This document shows positions 2,660 to 11,873 of a DNA stretch of 57,669 nt, one piece after another. Below the pieces are notes generated by a model. That model was not told the DNA's origin, did no database searches, and was given only the letters and a program-made list of their open reading frames with translations. Each line of letters opens with the position of its first letter. The first letter of the stretch is position 1. The translations under genes were made by a program, and so were the position numbers. Origin of the DNA: an uncultured Bacteroidota bacterium (lineage in GTDB: Bacteria > Bacteroidota > Bacteroidia > Flavobacteriales > Flavobacteriaceae); NCBI GenBank assembly GCA_902519955.1, contig CABYMF010000005.1:1-57669 (forward strand), read 5' to 3'.

Positions 2660-2973
2660 AATATTTTTCTTTTTATAAACACATGCTATTAATGACTTAA
2701 CAAGCAATCATAAATACTTCGCTACTATACGTGACTACAATTAAAATAAAAGAACCTCTATCGTTTAAAATAATTTAATTTTTTTTAAACATCTCCCAAA
2801 ATCTATTGAGTTGTAATGTGTAATTAATATTTTAAGGTAAAAGTTAAGATTAAAAAATCATATTACACTTTATTTAATAATCTATATTTATAAATGTATT
2901 TAATTATCATATTATTAAATTTTATATACTTTTTTTATCAAATTAATAAAATTTTTACTAAATTTATAACAAA
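2660..2973. other. AT-rich intergenic stretch upstream of the RNA leader
   Basis: No gene is visible here. There is an interrupted inverted repeat (GTGTAAT at about 2817-2823 and ATTACAC at 2863-2869) with a long loop, and runs of A and T. It probably carries the promoter for the leader and YRG protein that follow, but I cannot point to a clean TAnnTTTG element. Confidence 0.4.
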
Positions 2974-3042
2974 TCCCGTGTAGACTGGGACAAATAATAG
3001 AGTCGCGGGTGGAGAGAACGCATCCGAAAAAATCGTTACAAT
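2974..3042 (+). promoter_or_regulatory. Structured 5' leader, riboswitch-like, of the YRG-repeat gene
   Basis: This 69-base stretch stands out from its AT-rich surroundings by its GC content and pairing potential. CCCG (2975-2978) can pair with CGGG (3006-3009), enclosing GACT (2983-2986) with AGTC (3001-3004). A competing hairpin TCCC (2974-2977) with GGGA (2987-2990) uses the same bases, so two exclusive folds exist. Further on, GGA (3011-3013) can pair with TCC (3023-3025), and AACG (3017-3020) with CGTT (3034-3037), placing a stem right in front of the ATG at 3043. The piece GAACGCATC (3016-3024) resembles what I remember of the 3' core of glutamine riboswitches, but their upstream CGUUC partner is absent. 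The class is unassigned. Confidence 0.5.
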
Positions 3043-3252
3043 ATGTTTAATATAAATCTGAAATATATGAATTCTGAAAAATCAAATTTTACTTACAGAG
3101 GTGTTAAATATAATCACAATGATATTTCATCTTCTGATTCAAAACTTTCCAATGGTAAATATAGGGGAGTAAAGTTTAATGAAGGTTCACTTGAAAAAAA
3201 TCAAGCTTTTAAAAGAAAAGGCTTGTATAGAGGTCTAGAAGTTACTATCTAA
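3043..3252 (+). CDS. DUF4278-like YRG-repeat small protein
   Basis: A 69-aa protein built on three copies of a short motif: YRGVKY (residues 18-23), YRGVKF (40-45) and YRGLEV (62-67), spaced exactly 22 residues apart. Between them are polar, Ser/Asn/Lys-rich linkers. The YRG-V-x-Y/F motif is that of DUF4278, a family I know mainly from cyanobacteria and marine microbes; its function is unknown. There is no signal peptide or membrane segment, so it should be cytoplasmic. A second Met at residue 9 is a possible alternative start. The gene stands alone between a structured leader and a strong terminator, so it forms its own regulated transcript. Confidence 0.7.
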   Translation: MFNINLKYMNSEKSNFTYRGVKYNHNDISSSDSKLSNGKYRGVKFNEGSLEKNQAFKRKGLYRGLEVTI

Positions 3253-3262
3253 AAAGTTAATT

Positions 3263-3288
3263 AACTTAAAATACTAGTATTTTAGGTT
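3263..3288. repeat. Palindromic hairpin after the YRG gene
   Basis: AAAATA-CTAG-TATTTT forms a perfect inverted repeat, extended outward by AAC/GTT with a small mismatch. It lies 11 bases after the stop codon and about 20 bases before the real terminator. It could protect the 3' end of the message or be an operator; no poly-T run follows it, so it is not itself a terminator. Confidence 0.45.
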
Positions 3289-3310
3289 ATTTATTTAAGT
3301 AATCAGATTA

Positions 3311-3340
3311 AACCCCTTGTTATTAACAAGGGGTTTTTTT
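3311..3340 (+). terminator. Strong intrinsic terminator
   Basis: AACCCCTTGTT-ATT-AACAAGGGGTT forms a near-perfect stem followed by seven T residues. It closes the YRG-protein transcript. The stem is palindromic and could also slow transcription from the opposite side, where the SGNH gene ends at 3369. Confidence 0.9.
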
Positions 3341-3368
3341 ATTTTGAGACCTCTTTAAAAAATTGTAT

Positions 3369-4163
3369 TTATTGTATTGGCAAATAATTCTTTTTTAAAT
3401 ACATGGATGTAGCTTTATCTGCAATTTCTTGAAGAAGTATCTTATCTTCCTCATCTATAGCCCCATAGTAATTATATTTTAAACCTATTGGTGATATTCC
3501 ATATATACTAGCAAAAACAGTACATGCTGCCAAGTATGTTCCTTTGAGATTTGGGTGTGTCCCATCGTCTTGATGAAGTTTTATGTCAGGAAATTCCTGA
3601 TATGCAATATCAAAAGCTAACCCAACAGGAATTACAATAACATTGTTTTCTTTGCCAACTTTTGTGTAAATCTCTTCTATAACTCTTATTTGGTTTTCTT
3701 CAAAATCTTTATGTGGTTTCACATAAGCATGTGTCATATAAAGTGCTGCTTTAGAGTTATTCGCTTTGATTGATTCTATATGTTTTGTAGCGTAGTATGA
3801 AAACTCTTTCCGATTTTCTTGAGTTAATGGTTCAGAACTACCACCTTGAAGAATAACTAAATCAAACTTTTTAATTGAACTAATTGCCTTCGGCATAATT
3901 AGTCTTTCAACATCATGATGTTTTAATCTAGCTCCTCCAATAGTTGCAGATTTTACTGATGCTGCTCCATCATAGTCTTCAAGATGTTCTTCAACCATAC
4001 GTTTGAAATGATTGTGAAGACTATCCCCGTAATATAAGTAGCTATTACCAATAAATAATATCGTTCTAGGTTCTTGATTTTTATCGTAATTATCAACCTC
4101 TTGAGAGAATAAAGAGTTCGAAAAGAATAATACAATTAGTATAAGTTTATAAATATTTTTCAT
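3369..4163 (-). CDS. Secreted SGNH/GDSL-type hydrolase
   Basis: A 264-aa protein with a signal peptide (cleavage near LFSQ, residue 21). It carries the SGNH hydrolase blocks: block I ILFIGNSYLYY with the nucleophile Ser41, a Gly in LQGGSSEP for the oxyanion hole, and block V D200-G-T-H203-PN giving the Asp-x-x-His of the catalytic triad. Members are esterases or lipases, often deacylating carbohydrates. It is monocistronic: a terminator hairpin lies downstream and the reductase at 4237 is divergent. Substrate unknown. Confidence 0.85.
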   Translation of the reverse strand: MKNIYKLILIVLFFSNSLFSQEVDNYDKNQEPRTILFIGNSYLYYGDSLHNHFKRMVEEHLEDYDGAASVKSATIGGARLKHHDVERLIMPKAISSIKKFDLVILQGGSSEPLTQENRKEFSYYATKHIESIKANNSKAALYMTHAYVKPHKDFEENQIRVIEEIYTKVGKENNVIVIPVGLAFDIAYQEFPDIKLHQDDGTHPNLKGTYLAACTVFASIYGISPIGLKYNYYGAIDEEDKILLQEIADKATSMYLKKNYLPIQ

Positions 4164-9037: not shown

Positions 9038-10264
9038 ATGGAATTATTAACAACAAATAATGTTTGGATGATGCTATGTACAGCATTAGTCTTTTTTATG
9101 CATCTAGGATTTTCTTTCCTAGAGATTGGACTTACTAGACAAAAGAATACAATAAATATCTTATTTAAAAACTTTTTTATTATTACAATGGGATTAATTG
9201 TCTATTGTTTAGTTGGTTTCAACTTAATGTATCCTGGTGATTTTGATATCATAGGGAATGGTATTTTAGGATTCGCAGGTCCTGGTTTAGATGCTGTAGC
9301 TGCAGCAGACTTATCTTACAATGAGGGTTATACCTATTGGACTGATTTCCTATTTCAAGGAATGTTTGCTGCCACAGCTGGGACAATCATATCAGGTGCA
9401 GTAGCTGGAAGAATTAAGATTAATGCATTTATGCTTATAGTCTTTCTTTATATATTAATAGTTTACCCAATTGTTGGATCTTGGCAATGGGGAGGTGGTT
9501 TCCTTTCAACGCTCACGGATGAAGTTGGATTCTATGACTTCGCTGGTTCTACTCTTGTTCACTCTGTTGGTGGATGGGGAGGATTAGTTATAATTTACCT
9601 GCTTGGTGCTAGAAAAGGAAAATTTGACAGCTCTGGAAAAGCACTTGCAATTCCTGGATCAAACATTCCACTCTCTGCAGCTGGTGTTCTAATATTATGG
9701 CTTGGATGGTTTGGATTTAATGGTGGATCTGTCTTATCAGCTGATCCTGCAAATACTTCATTGGTACTTGTTACAACATGTCTAGCTGCTGCTGCAGGAG
9801 GATTAGGTGCCTCATTTTTATCATCTCTCATGTACAAGAACTTAGATATCACAATGTTTATGAATGGCGTTTTAGGAGGACTGGTAGGAATTACAGCTGG
9901 TGCTGATCAGATGGGTCCCACATCTGCAATATTAATTGGAGCAATAGGAGGGGCAATTGTTGTTCTTGGTGTAGCTCTTCTTGATAAATGTAAACTTGAT
10001 GATCCAGTTGGTGCAATTCCTGTGCATCTATTTGCTGGTATATGGGGAACTTTAGCTGTAGGAATTTTTGGAGCCTCTGCAGGTTTTGATCAATTTATGG
10101 TTCAACTTGCAAGTACTGGAATTGTGGGCGCGTTTTGTGTTGTTGGTGCCACTATTATTGCTTTAATAGTAAAATCAACTATGGGCCTCAGAGTATCTGA
10201 TGAAGAAGAAGAAATAGGATTAGATATTTCTGAACATGGAACAAAAGCGTATTTTTCATCATAA
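9038..10264 (+). CDS. amt: Ammonium transporter (Amt)
   Basis: A 408-aa inner-membrane channel with about 11 hydrophobic segments. Family landmarks are visible: DFAGSTLVHSVGGWGG with the Asp of the recruitment site and the first pore histidine, GWFGFNGGS, and GAIPVHLFAGIWG with the second pore histidine of the twin-His pair. The C-terminal tail (LRVSDEEEEIGLDISEHG) is the conserved cytoplasmic region that couples subunits and contacts PII. It is the last gene of the porin-PII-Amt operon and is followed by a strong terminator. It conducts ammonium/ammonia into the cell. Confidence 0.97.
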   Translation: MELLTTNNVWMMLCTALVFFMHLGFSFLEIGLTRQKNTINILFKNFFIITMGLIVYCLVGFNLMYPGDFDIIGNGILGFAGPGLDAVAAADLSYNEGYTYWTDFLFQGMFAATAGTIISGAVAGRIKINAFMLIVFLYILIVYPIVGSWQWGGGFLSTLTDEVGFYDFAGSTLVHSVGGWGGLVIIYLLGARKGKFDSSGKALAIPGSNIPLSAAGVLILWLGWFGFNGGSVLSADPANTSLVLVTTCLAAAAGGLGASFLSSLMYKNLDITMFMNGVLGGLVGITAGADQMGPTSAILIGAIGGAIVVLGVALLDKCKLDDPVGAIPVHLFAGIWGTLAVGIFGASAGFDQFMVQLASTGIVGAFCVVGATIIALIVKSTMGLRVSDEEEEIGLDISEHGTKAYFSS

Positions 10265-10295
10265 TGAGATAATAGCTTCTATTATTTTCAGTCTT

Positions 10296-10323
10296 AAAAG
10301 GAGATCATTTGATCTCCTTTTTT
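10296..10323 (+). terminator. Intrinsic terminator of the amt operon
   Basis: AAAAGGAGATC-ATTT-GATCTCCTTTT is a perfect stem with a T run, 32 bases after the amt stop codon. Confidence 0.92.
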
Positions 10324-10373
10324 GATTATTATATGTTTTAATTTTTTCATTTATAATATCTTAGTTTATAATA

Positions 10374-11873
10374 ATGAAGAAAATTGTAATAGTTGGAAGT
10401 GGAGTTAACGGACTCGTTGCTGCAAATTATCTAGTTAAGGATGGGTATGAAGTAACGATTATTGAAAAAAAAGACTTAACAGGGGGTGCATGCATAAAAG
10501 ATTCGAAGGTCATTGAAGGTAAAAAAATTGATTTTGCATATGGAGCGACAGTACTAGGTATGATGCCAAAGTTCATATTTAATGAAACTGGTTTGGTAAA
10601 TGATGTTGAAGGATTTTATCCAAAAACTCCAAAACTAGTATATTTCAAAAATGAAGAAAATTCTACTAAAATCTTTCAAGATTCTCTTGAATTAGCAAAA
10701 GAACTAAAAAATAAATGGGGAGAAAAGGGCAGGATAAATGATTTTAGAAATGATGAAAATAAAGTAATTAAATTTATTCAAAAGCTTTATAAAGAGGCTT
10801 CAACTCCAACTGTTGAAATAGCTTATAAAGAACTAGGGAAAAAGCTTTCTAATCTTTGGATATTTGGAACTGCAAAAGACCTACTTGATCACTATTTTAC
10901 ATCTGAAAAATCAAAATTATATATGGGTATGACAGTAATTGAAAGTGGCCCTGCATCAATTTATGATCCAGGAACTGCATTTACAATTCCATTGATGGAC
11001 TCTGGATCTGTCTTTGATGGATATTGGGGGTTTGTAAAAACTGGTATTTGGAAAATAACAGAGAGTCTGACTAAAATCAATTTAAGTTTGGGTGTAAAAA
11101 TTAATTTAAACTCACATATTAATGAAATTGATACTCAATCTAAATTGATCTCTTTCACAAGAGATCAAGGTGACATAGAACAATATTATGATCATTTAAT
11201 ATTTGCTACAGATCCGATAACACCCTCTAAACTAATTAAAGATTTTAATAAAAAAATTGAACTCGATTTAATAGGAACTAGTGGAAAGGTAACAGCATTT
11301 TTTAGAAATCCTGTAAAATGGAAGGACTCCAATGAGTACCCTAATACCTTTAGATTTATATTTTCAAATAATAGTCTTAAAGAATTTGAGGAAGCTAGTC
11401 AAAATTCTCTAAAAAACAATGGAGATTATTTTCCAGGATTCATTCAGATATACCCAGATGGAAGTGCACAACGAAGTATGAATAACAAAGAGAGTTTTGA
11501 TAAACTAATACTTTTTACTAAGAATCTTAGCTATAATAAAAAAGCTCATGATTTAAACAAAGTAAAGGAAGAAATAATATCAGCTGTATTACCTTACATT
11601 GAAAATCCAGAGGATCTTGCTTTTAGTAAGTTTCTTACTCCAAAAGATTTAAATGAGACTTTTCATTTTCCAATGGGCAATATTGATCATACAACTATAA
11701 CTGGAAATCAAAATTATAATAAAAGGACTTTTAGTAATAATGATAAAAACTTTTACTCATATTATGACTATAAAGATATTTATTATTGCGGTGCTGGAAG
11801 CTTTCCTTGTGGAAGTGTAGCTGGCACTGCTGGATACATGTGTTCCAAACAAATTATTAGAAATGATTATTAA
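10374..11873 (+). CDS. FAD-dependent oxidoreductase, PYROXD2/phytoene desaturase-like
   Basis: A 499-aa flavoprotein. The N-terminus is a dinucleotide-binding fold, KKIVIVGSGVNGLVAANYL (G8-x-G10-x-x-G13), followed by an acidic end of strand two (IIEKKDLTGGACI). The C-terminus has the PYROXD2-like pattern: FLTPKDLNETFHFPMGNIDH and IYYCGAGSFPCGSVAGTAGY, the latter closing around FAD. Relatives include carotenoid desaturases and a mitochondrial/bacterial group of unknown substrate. I see no signal peptide. It stands between the amt terminator and the SGNH pair, probably as its own transcript. Confidence 0.85.
   Translation: MKKIVIVGSGVNGLVAANYLVKDGYEVTIIEKKDLTGGACIKDSKVIEGKKIDFAYGATVLGMMPKFIFNETGLVNDVEGFYPKTPKLVYFKNEENSTKIFQDSLELAKELKNKWGEKGRINDFRNDENKVIKFIQKLYKEASTPTVEIAYKELGKKLSNLWIFGTAKDLLDHYFTSEKSKLYMGMTVIESGPASIYDPGTAFTIPLMDSGSVFDGYWGFVKTGIWKITESLTKINLSLGVKINLNSHINEIDTQSKLISFTRDQGDIEQYYDHLIFATDPITPSKLIKDFNKKIELDLIGTSGKVTAFFRNPVKWKDSNEYPNTFRFIFSNNSLKEFEEASQNSLKNNGDYFPGFIQIYPDGSAQRSMNNKESFDKLILFTKNLSYNKKAHDLNKVKEEIISAVLPYIENPEDLAFSKFLTPKDLNETFHFPMGNIDHTTITGNQNYNKRTFSNNDKNFYSYYDYKDIYYCGAGSFPCGSVAGTAGYMCSKQIIRNDY

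Follow-up and report, generated by a model that had tools for sequence, protein, structure and literature searches.

Upstream of a small DUF4278 gene in the window, by which we mean the whole 57,669-nt stretch of DNA analysed here, comparison of homologs reveals a structured RNA of ~70 nt that is made of two H-type pseudoknots in tandem. It recurs in marine Flavobacteriaceae and in viral contigs, where we found 81 distinct loci and a further five divergent copies, and constitutes a real RNA family without an Rfam 15 match, with riboswitch-like anatomy and the life-style of a mobile cassette: new as a family, known as a kind. That the element is a structured, cis-acting RNA we regard as nearly certain. 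Our preferred explanation, to which we give somewhat better than even credence, is a riboswitch-like 5′ UTR that would act on translation and be carried by a mobile leader-ORF-terminator cassette, with glutamine perhaps as the ligand.

Two pseudoknots in tandem

A preliminary description of this region had proposed a leader able to form two mutually exclusive stems, TCCC/GGGA or CCCG/CGGG enclosing GACT/AGTC, and a further AACG/CGTT stem. All of these words are where it had placed them (CCCG at 2975-2978, CGGG at 3006-3009, the others as in Table 1), as is GAACGCATC at 3016-3024, but together they make better sense as a pair of pseudoknots than as folds that exclude each other. In pseudoknot 1, TCCC/GGGA forms the outer stem and the loop word GACT finds its partner in AGTC; the second pseudoknot has AACG/CGTT as its inner helix, across CGGGTG/CATCCG. 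Each half shows the classic H-type layout, with a stem, a 5-nt first loop, a 4-bp second helix without linker and an A-rich third loop.

Table 1. Coordinates of the leader, its gene and the surrounding insert in the window
Feature	Position	Strand	Details
Pseudoknot 1, 5′ part	2974..2990	+	S1 TCCC 2974-2977 / GGGA 2987-2990, covarying; L1 GUGUA 2978-2982; S2 5′ strand GACU 2983-2986
Pseudoknot 1, S2 3′ strand	3001..3004	+	AGUC; reached across the A/U-rich loop L3 2991-3000
Pseudoknot 2	3006..3026	+	S1 CGGGUG 3006-3011 / CAUCCG 3021-3026; L1 GAGAG 3012-3016; S2 5′ strand AACG 3017-3020
Pseudoknot 2, S2 3′ strand	3034..3037	+	CGUU; 3′ of the A-rich L3 3027-3033
DUF4278 small protein	3067..3252	+	61 aa from ATG 3067 (69 aa if the start is 3043); PF14105 match; probable start, from leader-to-ATG spacing
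Intrinsic terminator closing the cassette transcript	3313..3340	+	CCCCTTGTT/AACAAGGGG, then T7; read from the sequence
Inserted cassette, ~724 bp	2660..3383	+	spans an AT-rich upstream region, the leader, its ORF and the terminator; five relatives lack it at this site
Block common to the YRG cassettes of three same-genus genomes	2820..3270	+	79-84% identity over 433-457 bp; there at another chromosomal site with unrelated flanks

Folding stability gave no signal, since the single sequence folds no better than its shuffles (z −0.53 for 2974-3042 and +0.19 for 2970-3060); energies are ordinary in the homologs as well (mean z −0.36, 24 of 70 homologs). Such ordinary energy is what would speak for a chance GC-rich patch, a reading whose probability we consider negligible and which is refuted because both conservation and covariation extend over 75 sequences. 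The leader had been described from the outset as structured, with the behavior of its homologs as the touchstone, and here the claim has held up: the homologs keep the stems, and they covary.

Stem P1 covaries. In an anchored alignment of 70 sequences, its third pair occurs as CG, UA or AU and its fourth as UA, AU or GC; these are paired in 70/70 and 69/70 sequences, whereas 2000 shuffles never exceeded 58 and 45. The fifth pair (61/70) lies barely above shuffles (mean 55.7, maximum 62), and the sixth not above them. When the same number of sequences was aligned with MAFFT, the four helices of the double pseudoknot were paired in 98.8% of cells, and cells changed on both sides of a pair numbered 48 versus 13.4 in shuffles (0/500). 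Counted without the divergent copies, neither the pairs with both-side changes (3 versus 2.7 shuffled; 372/500) nor the pair types (11 versus 9.3; 65/500) went beyond shuffles. With the five divergent copies included, in a 75-row alignment in which the two outer stems, and not the pseudoknot helices, had been fitted to the model, both-side cells reached 57 versus 15.3 (0/500) and pairs with both-side changes 6 versus 3.2 (0/500); slid controls of this alignment were 16-43% paired. Four rows were left out of the alignment for truncation or N (L051, L101, L106, L114).

Considered by helix, the first S2 pair of pseudoknot 1 is G-C in 71 sequences and A-U in four divergent copies (L154-L157), which are related, so that the change may be one event. 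Its AGUC strand is invariant in 70 sequences, having been fixed by the search pattern in most rows, and the closing pair of P1 is broken in two divergent copies. In S1 of pseudoknot 2, a G-U pair becomes G-C in 22/74 sequences, and the outer pair, unpaired in 10/75, changes once from C-G to A-U (L153). The four pairs of the inner helix AACG/CGUU are all kept in 74/75 sequences, the sole mismatch being in L155, whose ORF also looks frameshifted; covariation was never seen in this helix among the 75 sequences.

The mean nested-ensemble probability of the two outer stems is 0.80 and 0.86 (70 sequences). The CCCG/CGGG alternative can pair in most sequences, at a mean probability of 0.07 in the same set, yet it shows no both-side change and its outer pair is broken in 8/75. 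We therefore reject the proposed switch stem as the conserved fold, and no switching alternative was backed by covariation in the 75 sequences.

The loops GUGUR and GAGNG are near-invariant (mean pairwise identity 0.954 and 0.959 for columns 8-20 and 37-61), a value inflated by the collection of most rows with patterns fixing GTGTRGACTGG and AGTCGCGGGTG. Homologs found without the GTGTRGACTGG pattern, by genome DNA search or by the second-half pattern, show the same core, and the divergent copies found with the model depart from it in part. A coding role for the leader itself was rejected: an open frame runs through several viral copies, but that of the window copy reads GTG-TAG.

Distribution of the family

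When 100 related genomes were searched at the DNA level, seven genomes of the same genus, in addition to the one that contains the window, proved to carry the leader, with 86-89% identity across 66-83 bases. Clear copies occur in 8/25 genus genomes, a patchy distribution among assemblies several of which are incomplete; weak matches in two others (G010 and G011, 17.7-23.2 bits) were not counted. The one in G011 (L179:1128-1199), a 23-bit model match, keeps AATAATATAGT and parts of the pairing with the core lost, and is possibly a decayed leader copy.

Across the family, a second-half pattern with up to three mismatches matched 15/397 genomes. Reading the sequences left nine as real (G000, G144, G212, G326, G352 with three copies, G387, G404, G418 and G452), and six with three-mismatch matches were dropped as chance (G036, G149, G170, G181, G245, G264), as many as a reversed control pattern matched. 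A scan of genome contigs gave 67 loci, in records titled Flavobacteriales, Flavobacteriaceae, Bacteroidetes or relatives, with the exception of L069, titled Bdellovibrionota. A covariance model run on 39 chosen genomes added more divergent copies in G802 (four copies in total), G800 and G812; L164 had no match to the model. With the same approach, 395 genomes sampled from the order and 296 from the phylum returned the window's own copy only, weak negatives given the stricter filters and the few candidates scored per genome.

The distinct loci are what remains of 84 collected once three exact duplicates, truncated at the end of their contig (L051, L060, L078), are removed. Pattern matches dropped by eye as unrelated were L016-L019, L022, L023, L024, L026, L029, L034 and L035, as well as L052 and L054. 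Rfam 15 gave no match at the gathering score in the whole window and none in 11 loci, and the literature searched, mainly without subscription papers, yielded no earlier description of the RNA.

One leader, several small genes

The same RNA precedes unrelated small genes. Among the distinct loci, 15 have a YRG/DUF4278-like gene, 42 an ALEPNQGH peptide and 19 a KYYNKTRT gene; in three the leader is followed by something different (Pfam identifies hypD in L038 and a TonB-receptor gene in L039; L082 has a terminator), and two are cut (L106, L114). The divergent copies precede a KYYNKTRT gene (L153) or ORFs of ~50 aa that we judged by eye to be lipoprotein-like, Pfam having no match for one such ORF. 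The window gene is a DUF4278 gene (Pfam PF14105, E 1.6e-7, 32 bits against a curated cut-off of 25.3) followed by a strong terminator, both as originally proposed. DUF4278 is rare in the family, passing the cut-off in 4/25 genus genomes and 2/299 family genomes, and the five distinct genomes that have it all carry the leader; a match under the cut-off and with stops in G045 was not counted. The commonest partner, the ALEPNQGH peptide, matches no family in Pfam or PHROGs. Judged by their codons, these peptides are translated, because third positions vary most (entropy 0.72/0.48/1.34 by codon position; 40 sequences); pairwise codon differences in this set comprise 3356 synonymous and 3735 non-synonymous ones. 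Among the nearest ORFs read downstream of the leaders, no glnA, amt, PII or gltB was recognised.

In two classes the start codon sits at a near-fixed distance. The ATG lies 59-61 nt after AGTCGC in the 15 YRG loci and 60-68 nt after it in 43 peptide loci (one a duplicate), as chosen by a script that preferred an ATG in that spacing range; the chosen codon is the first ATG of its frame in 50/58 loci, and an earlier in-frame one exists in eight, including the window copy. Because of this spacing in the other loci, we place the window start probably at 3067 and not at 3043, which would make the leader ~93 nt or longer in place of the 69 bases first given for it. This regularity does not extend to every class, since KYYNKTRT genes (19 loci) begin 102-197 nt downstream. 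Leaders of this last class often have, ~60-75 nt after AGTCGC, the TTTATG start of a very short ORF, with the real gene further on (L065, L080, L083, L084, L087, L088, L093, L153); it is possibly an upstream ORF. Many peptide-class and KYYNKTRT-class leaders also have a second AACG (in TTTAACGC) 3′ of CGUU, which could compete with the upstream AACG for CGUU and so be a possible expression platform.

Terminator-like sites follow 13/15 YRG, 35/40 peptide and 6/13 KYYNKTRT ORFs examined, where shuffles expect 0.4, 2.7 and 0.7, and in the YRG and peptide classes none was seen between the leader and its ORF. At L082:4716-4830 an intrinsic terminator comes directly after the leader with no ORF recognised, marking either a decayed cassette or a stand-alone RNA. 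On the 5′ side, a promoter-like box, TAnnTTT[AG], is present in 60/79 upstream regions versus 17.6 in base shuffles. Between this box and P1, six peptide-class leaders (L027, L028, L037, L058, L064, L089) carry an extra inverted repeat (for example TTGTGAAA...TTTCACAA or TACGAATT...AATTCGTA) whose arms differ together between loci, and which may be an additional 5′ hairpin or an operator.

A mobile cassette

Comparison of the same site in related genomes identifies leader, ORF and terminator as a mobile cassette, in which the putative regulatory RNA and the small-protein gene travel together as one unit. In five relatives (G014, G009, G022, G012, G021), the end of a GNAT gene is joined directly to sequence matching the window at ~3384, and the window therefore holds an insert of ~724 bp. 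The GDSL-type hydrolase gene (Pfam) beside the cassette is present in 10/25 genus genomes, the window's own included; in G005 and G016 it joins the gene before GNAT, likewise without a cassette. G012, G021 and G005 have a YRG cassette at another, common site beside tRNA-Pro, with 433-457 bp in common with the window. The tRNA-Pro (tgg) gene that this cassette adjoins lies at 1853-1928 in L004, 1166-1241 in L005 and 2009-2084 in L006. No other ORF of at least 40 aa lies wholly inside the window insert, which fits the earlier remark that the gene has no operon partners, and no recombinase ORF was found there. The right end of the insert (3369-3383) appears to reach the end of the hydrolase gene, altering its last few codons relative to its kin.

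Copies in viral contigs

Viral contigs yielded the copies L015, L020 and L021. A first-half pattern matched 16 contigs, of which 15 were real, and L165 adds one more viral copy with its 5′ end cut. Leader and peptide in L048 are followed, within a T4-like baseplate region, by a small conserved ORF that is also the next ORF in seven further contigs (L040, L042, L043, L045, L047, L050, L053). At 38-43% identity, Flavobacterium phages and a Microcystis phage are among the closest named relatives of the L048 baseplate protein. This T4-like contig also carries a Nol-like carbamoyltransferase gene (9839-11557). L015 and L020, which carry a 22-aa YRG peptide, lie in other surroundings that include a Cpn10-like gene; their viral status rests on the collection they come from, two of their ORFs having no PHROGs match. 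Searches of named phages gave chance matches only or none for the leader, weak matches to a tape-measure region only for the DUF4278 protein, and none for the ALEPNQGH peptide.

A putative riboswitch and its rivals

Taken across the loci, the comparison gives one conserved architecture, a near-fixed AUG spacing in two gene classes, several unrelated partners, terminated cassettes and presence in viral contigs. The conserved, aptamer-like structure in a putative 5′ UTR, with its regular relation to the ORF, matches what one expects of a riboswitch, and the association with DUF4278 or short-peptide genes resembles that of glutamine riboswitches. We consider it fairly likely that the RNA senses a metabolite. 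In the mechanism that we propose, the tandem pseudoknots (~70 nt) and the start codon, set ~30 nt apart by a spacer of nearly constant length, would together tune translation of small regulatory proteins. The GUGUR and GAGNG loops and the A-rich third loops would make the putative ligand pocket; ligand binding would stabilise the tandem pseudoknot and thereby alter ribosome access to a start region without a Shine-Dalgarno sequence. Control at translation is suggested because the YRG and peptide classes have a near-fixed AUG spacing and no terminator was seen there between the leader and the gene. Flavobacterial mRNAs are described as lacking Shine-Dalgarno sequences, with initiation tuned by mRNA structure (PMC6847099, accessible text).

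For the ligand, glutamine or another nitrogen-status metabolite is suggested because DUF4278 is the characteristic partner of cyanobacterial glutamine riboswitches, which in cyanobacteria mainly precede DUF4278 genes and activate on glutamine (PMC6316151, in the part available). By the same analogy, the ligand would most simply switch the gene ON; the small proteins could inhibit a nitrogen-assimilation enzyme or serve it as adaptors. Glutamine is the first candidate because partner, protein size and viral carriage all run parallel, and as the specific ligand we would call it plausible, at rather less than even confidence. The link is one of analogy and not of membership, because the covariance models give no match and no nitrogen gene was recognised downstream. 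A relaxed Rfam scan of the window leader returned only RsaB (18.1 bits, cut-off 55) and rli62 (13.2 bits, cut-off 83), both at chance level; neither glutamine class (RF01739 / RF01704) appeared in relaxed scans of three leader regions, and RF01739 was found in 0/25 genus genomes. The preliminary description had seen a trace of the glutamine riboswitch core in the leader. Its hint proves pertinent for a reason that it did not give, the DUF4278 link (PMC6316151, as far as accessible), but no known class is matched.

It had further suggested a rearranged or new class, and new now looks likelier than rearranged, because no known glutamine class is matched. In known glutamine riboswitches, the closing stem pairs an upstream CGUU strand with a downstream AACG, and the family core is GGAAGUA. 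GAACGC and CGUU are present here in the reverse order, as a permuted member of that family would have them; in the leader, however, CGTT stands 3′ of AACG and pairs with it in 74/75 sequences as a pseudoknot across CGGGUG/CAYCCG, the GGAAGUA core is not visible and Rfam gives no match, so that a permuted glutamine riboswitch is very improbable. As improbable, to us, is an element acting as DNA, that is, a recombination or end site of the cassette akin to an integron attC site or a transposon end. The cassette does move, as a unit of 0.3-0.7 kb whose empty site is clean, but the motif (2974-3037) is internal to the insert (~2660-3383) and not at its ends, its distance to the AUG is kept and the insert has no recombinase ORF, on which grounds we rejected an attC-like site.

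More weight attaches to two rivals that leave the RNA a function without a metabolite. A constitutive translation or stability element, protecting the 5′ end or aiding ribosome loading without a Shine-Dalgarno sequence, could travel with small-protein cassettes and with viral genes needing high expression. The near-fixed distance to the AUG in two classes, the nearby promoter-like box (60/79 versus 17.6 shuffled) and the position beside viral structural genes agree with it, while the near-invariance of the unpaired GUGUR and GAGNG, for which the search patterns account in part, is more than a simple structural block would call for; we deem this reading unlikely, though a genuine contender. A binding site for a host RNA-binding regulator, or a dual-function sRNA acting in trans, is a good deal less probable: short terminated transcripts are predicted (13/15 and 35/40 ORFs) and L082 has its terminator right after the leader with no ORF seen, but the ATG lies at 59-68 nt in all 58 YRG and peptide loci measured, and no partner protein is known.

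The riboswitch-like 5′ UTR that we prefer admits a bolder version, which we find doubtful but conceivable: a third, structurally unrelated class of glutamine (nitrogen-status) riboswitch, built of tandem pseudoknots, may have evolved in marine Flavobacteriaceae and their T4-like phages, converged on the DUF4278 partner of the cyanobacterial classes and spread as a self-contained cassette of "switch plus small inhibitor" that bacteria and viruses have in common. Glutamine riboswitches are described as confined to cyanobacteria (PMC6316151, accessible part); if the bolder version is true, RNA sensing of the nitrogen state arose again, with the same kind of partner protein, outside that group. 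More generally, the analysis adds a covarying RNA family without an Rfam 15 match in marine bacteria and viral contigs, and this leader RNA may be a candidate for an undescribed sensor of nutrient state. The DUF4278 link supplies a concrete and cheap ligand hypothesis, and four families of uncharacterised small proteins become testable as one functional group.

Comparison with known systems

Type III toxin-antitoxin systems have ToxI-like pseudoknot repeats upstream of a gene, on mobile DNA and phages. The family described here resembles them in having a pseudoknotted RNA that precedes a gene and is carried by mobile DNA and phages, but its two pseudoknots are not sequence repeats and its ORFs are small and of other families in the 76 assigned loci; a ToxIN-like system was rejected, the nearest downstream ORFs being small proteins of other kinds. 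The preQ1-I and SAM-II riboswitches are H-type pseudoknots with a stem, a short first loop, a linker-free second helix and an A-rich third loop. The window RNA has this layout in common with them; unlike them, it has two such pseudoknots in succession, and it has no Rfam match.

Glutamine riboswitch type 1 (glnA RNA, RF01739) comes close in its setting, as a ligand-sensing 5′ UTR before DUF4278 genes such as gifB in cyanobacteria (PMC6316151, accessible text). A glnA-like motif is reported in marine phages (PMC9004378, in part), and glutamine riboswitches are described from T4-like marine phages (accessible parts of PMC9004378 and PMC9964418). The window RNA differs from RF01739 in its helices, in its host, Flavobacteriaceae, and in having no match to the covariance model. 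Type 2 (Downstream-peptide RNA, RF01704) is reported only from marine picocyanobacteria in the available text of PMC6316151, and its model finds no match in the window or in the 11 loci scanned. It is nonetheless alike in company and habit: it precedes ORFs of 17-100 aa and DUF4278 genes, occurs in several copies per genome and gives short leader-peptide transcripts such as yfr6 (PMC2864571 and PMC6316151, as far as accessible).
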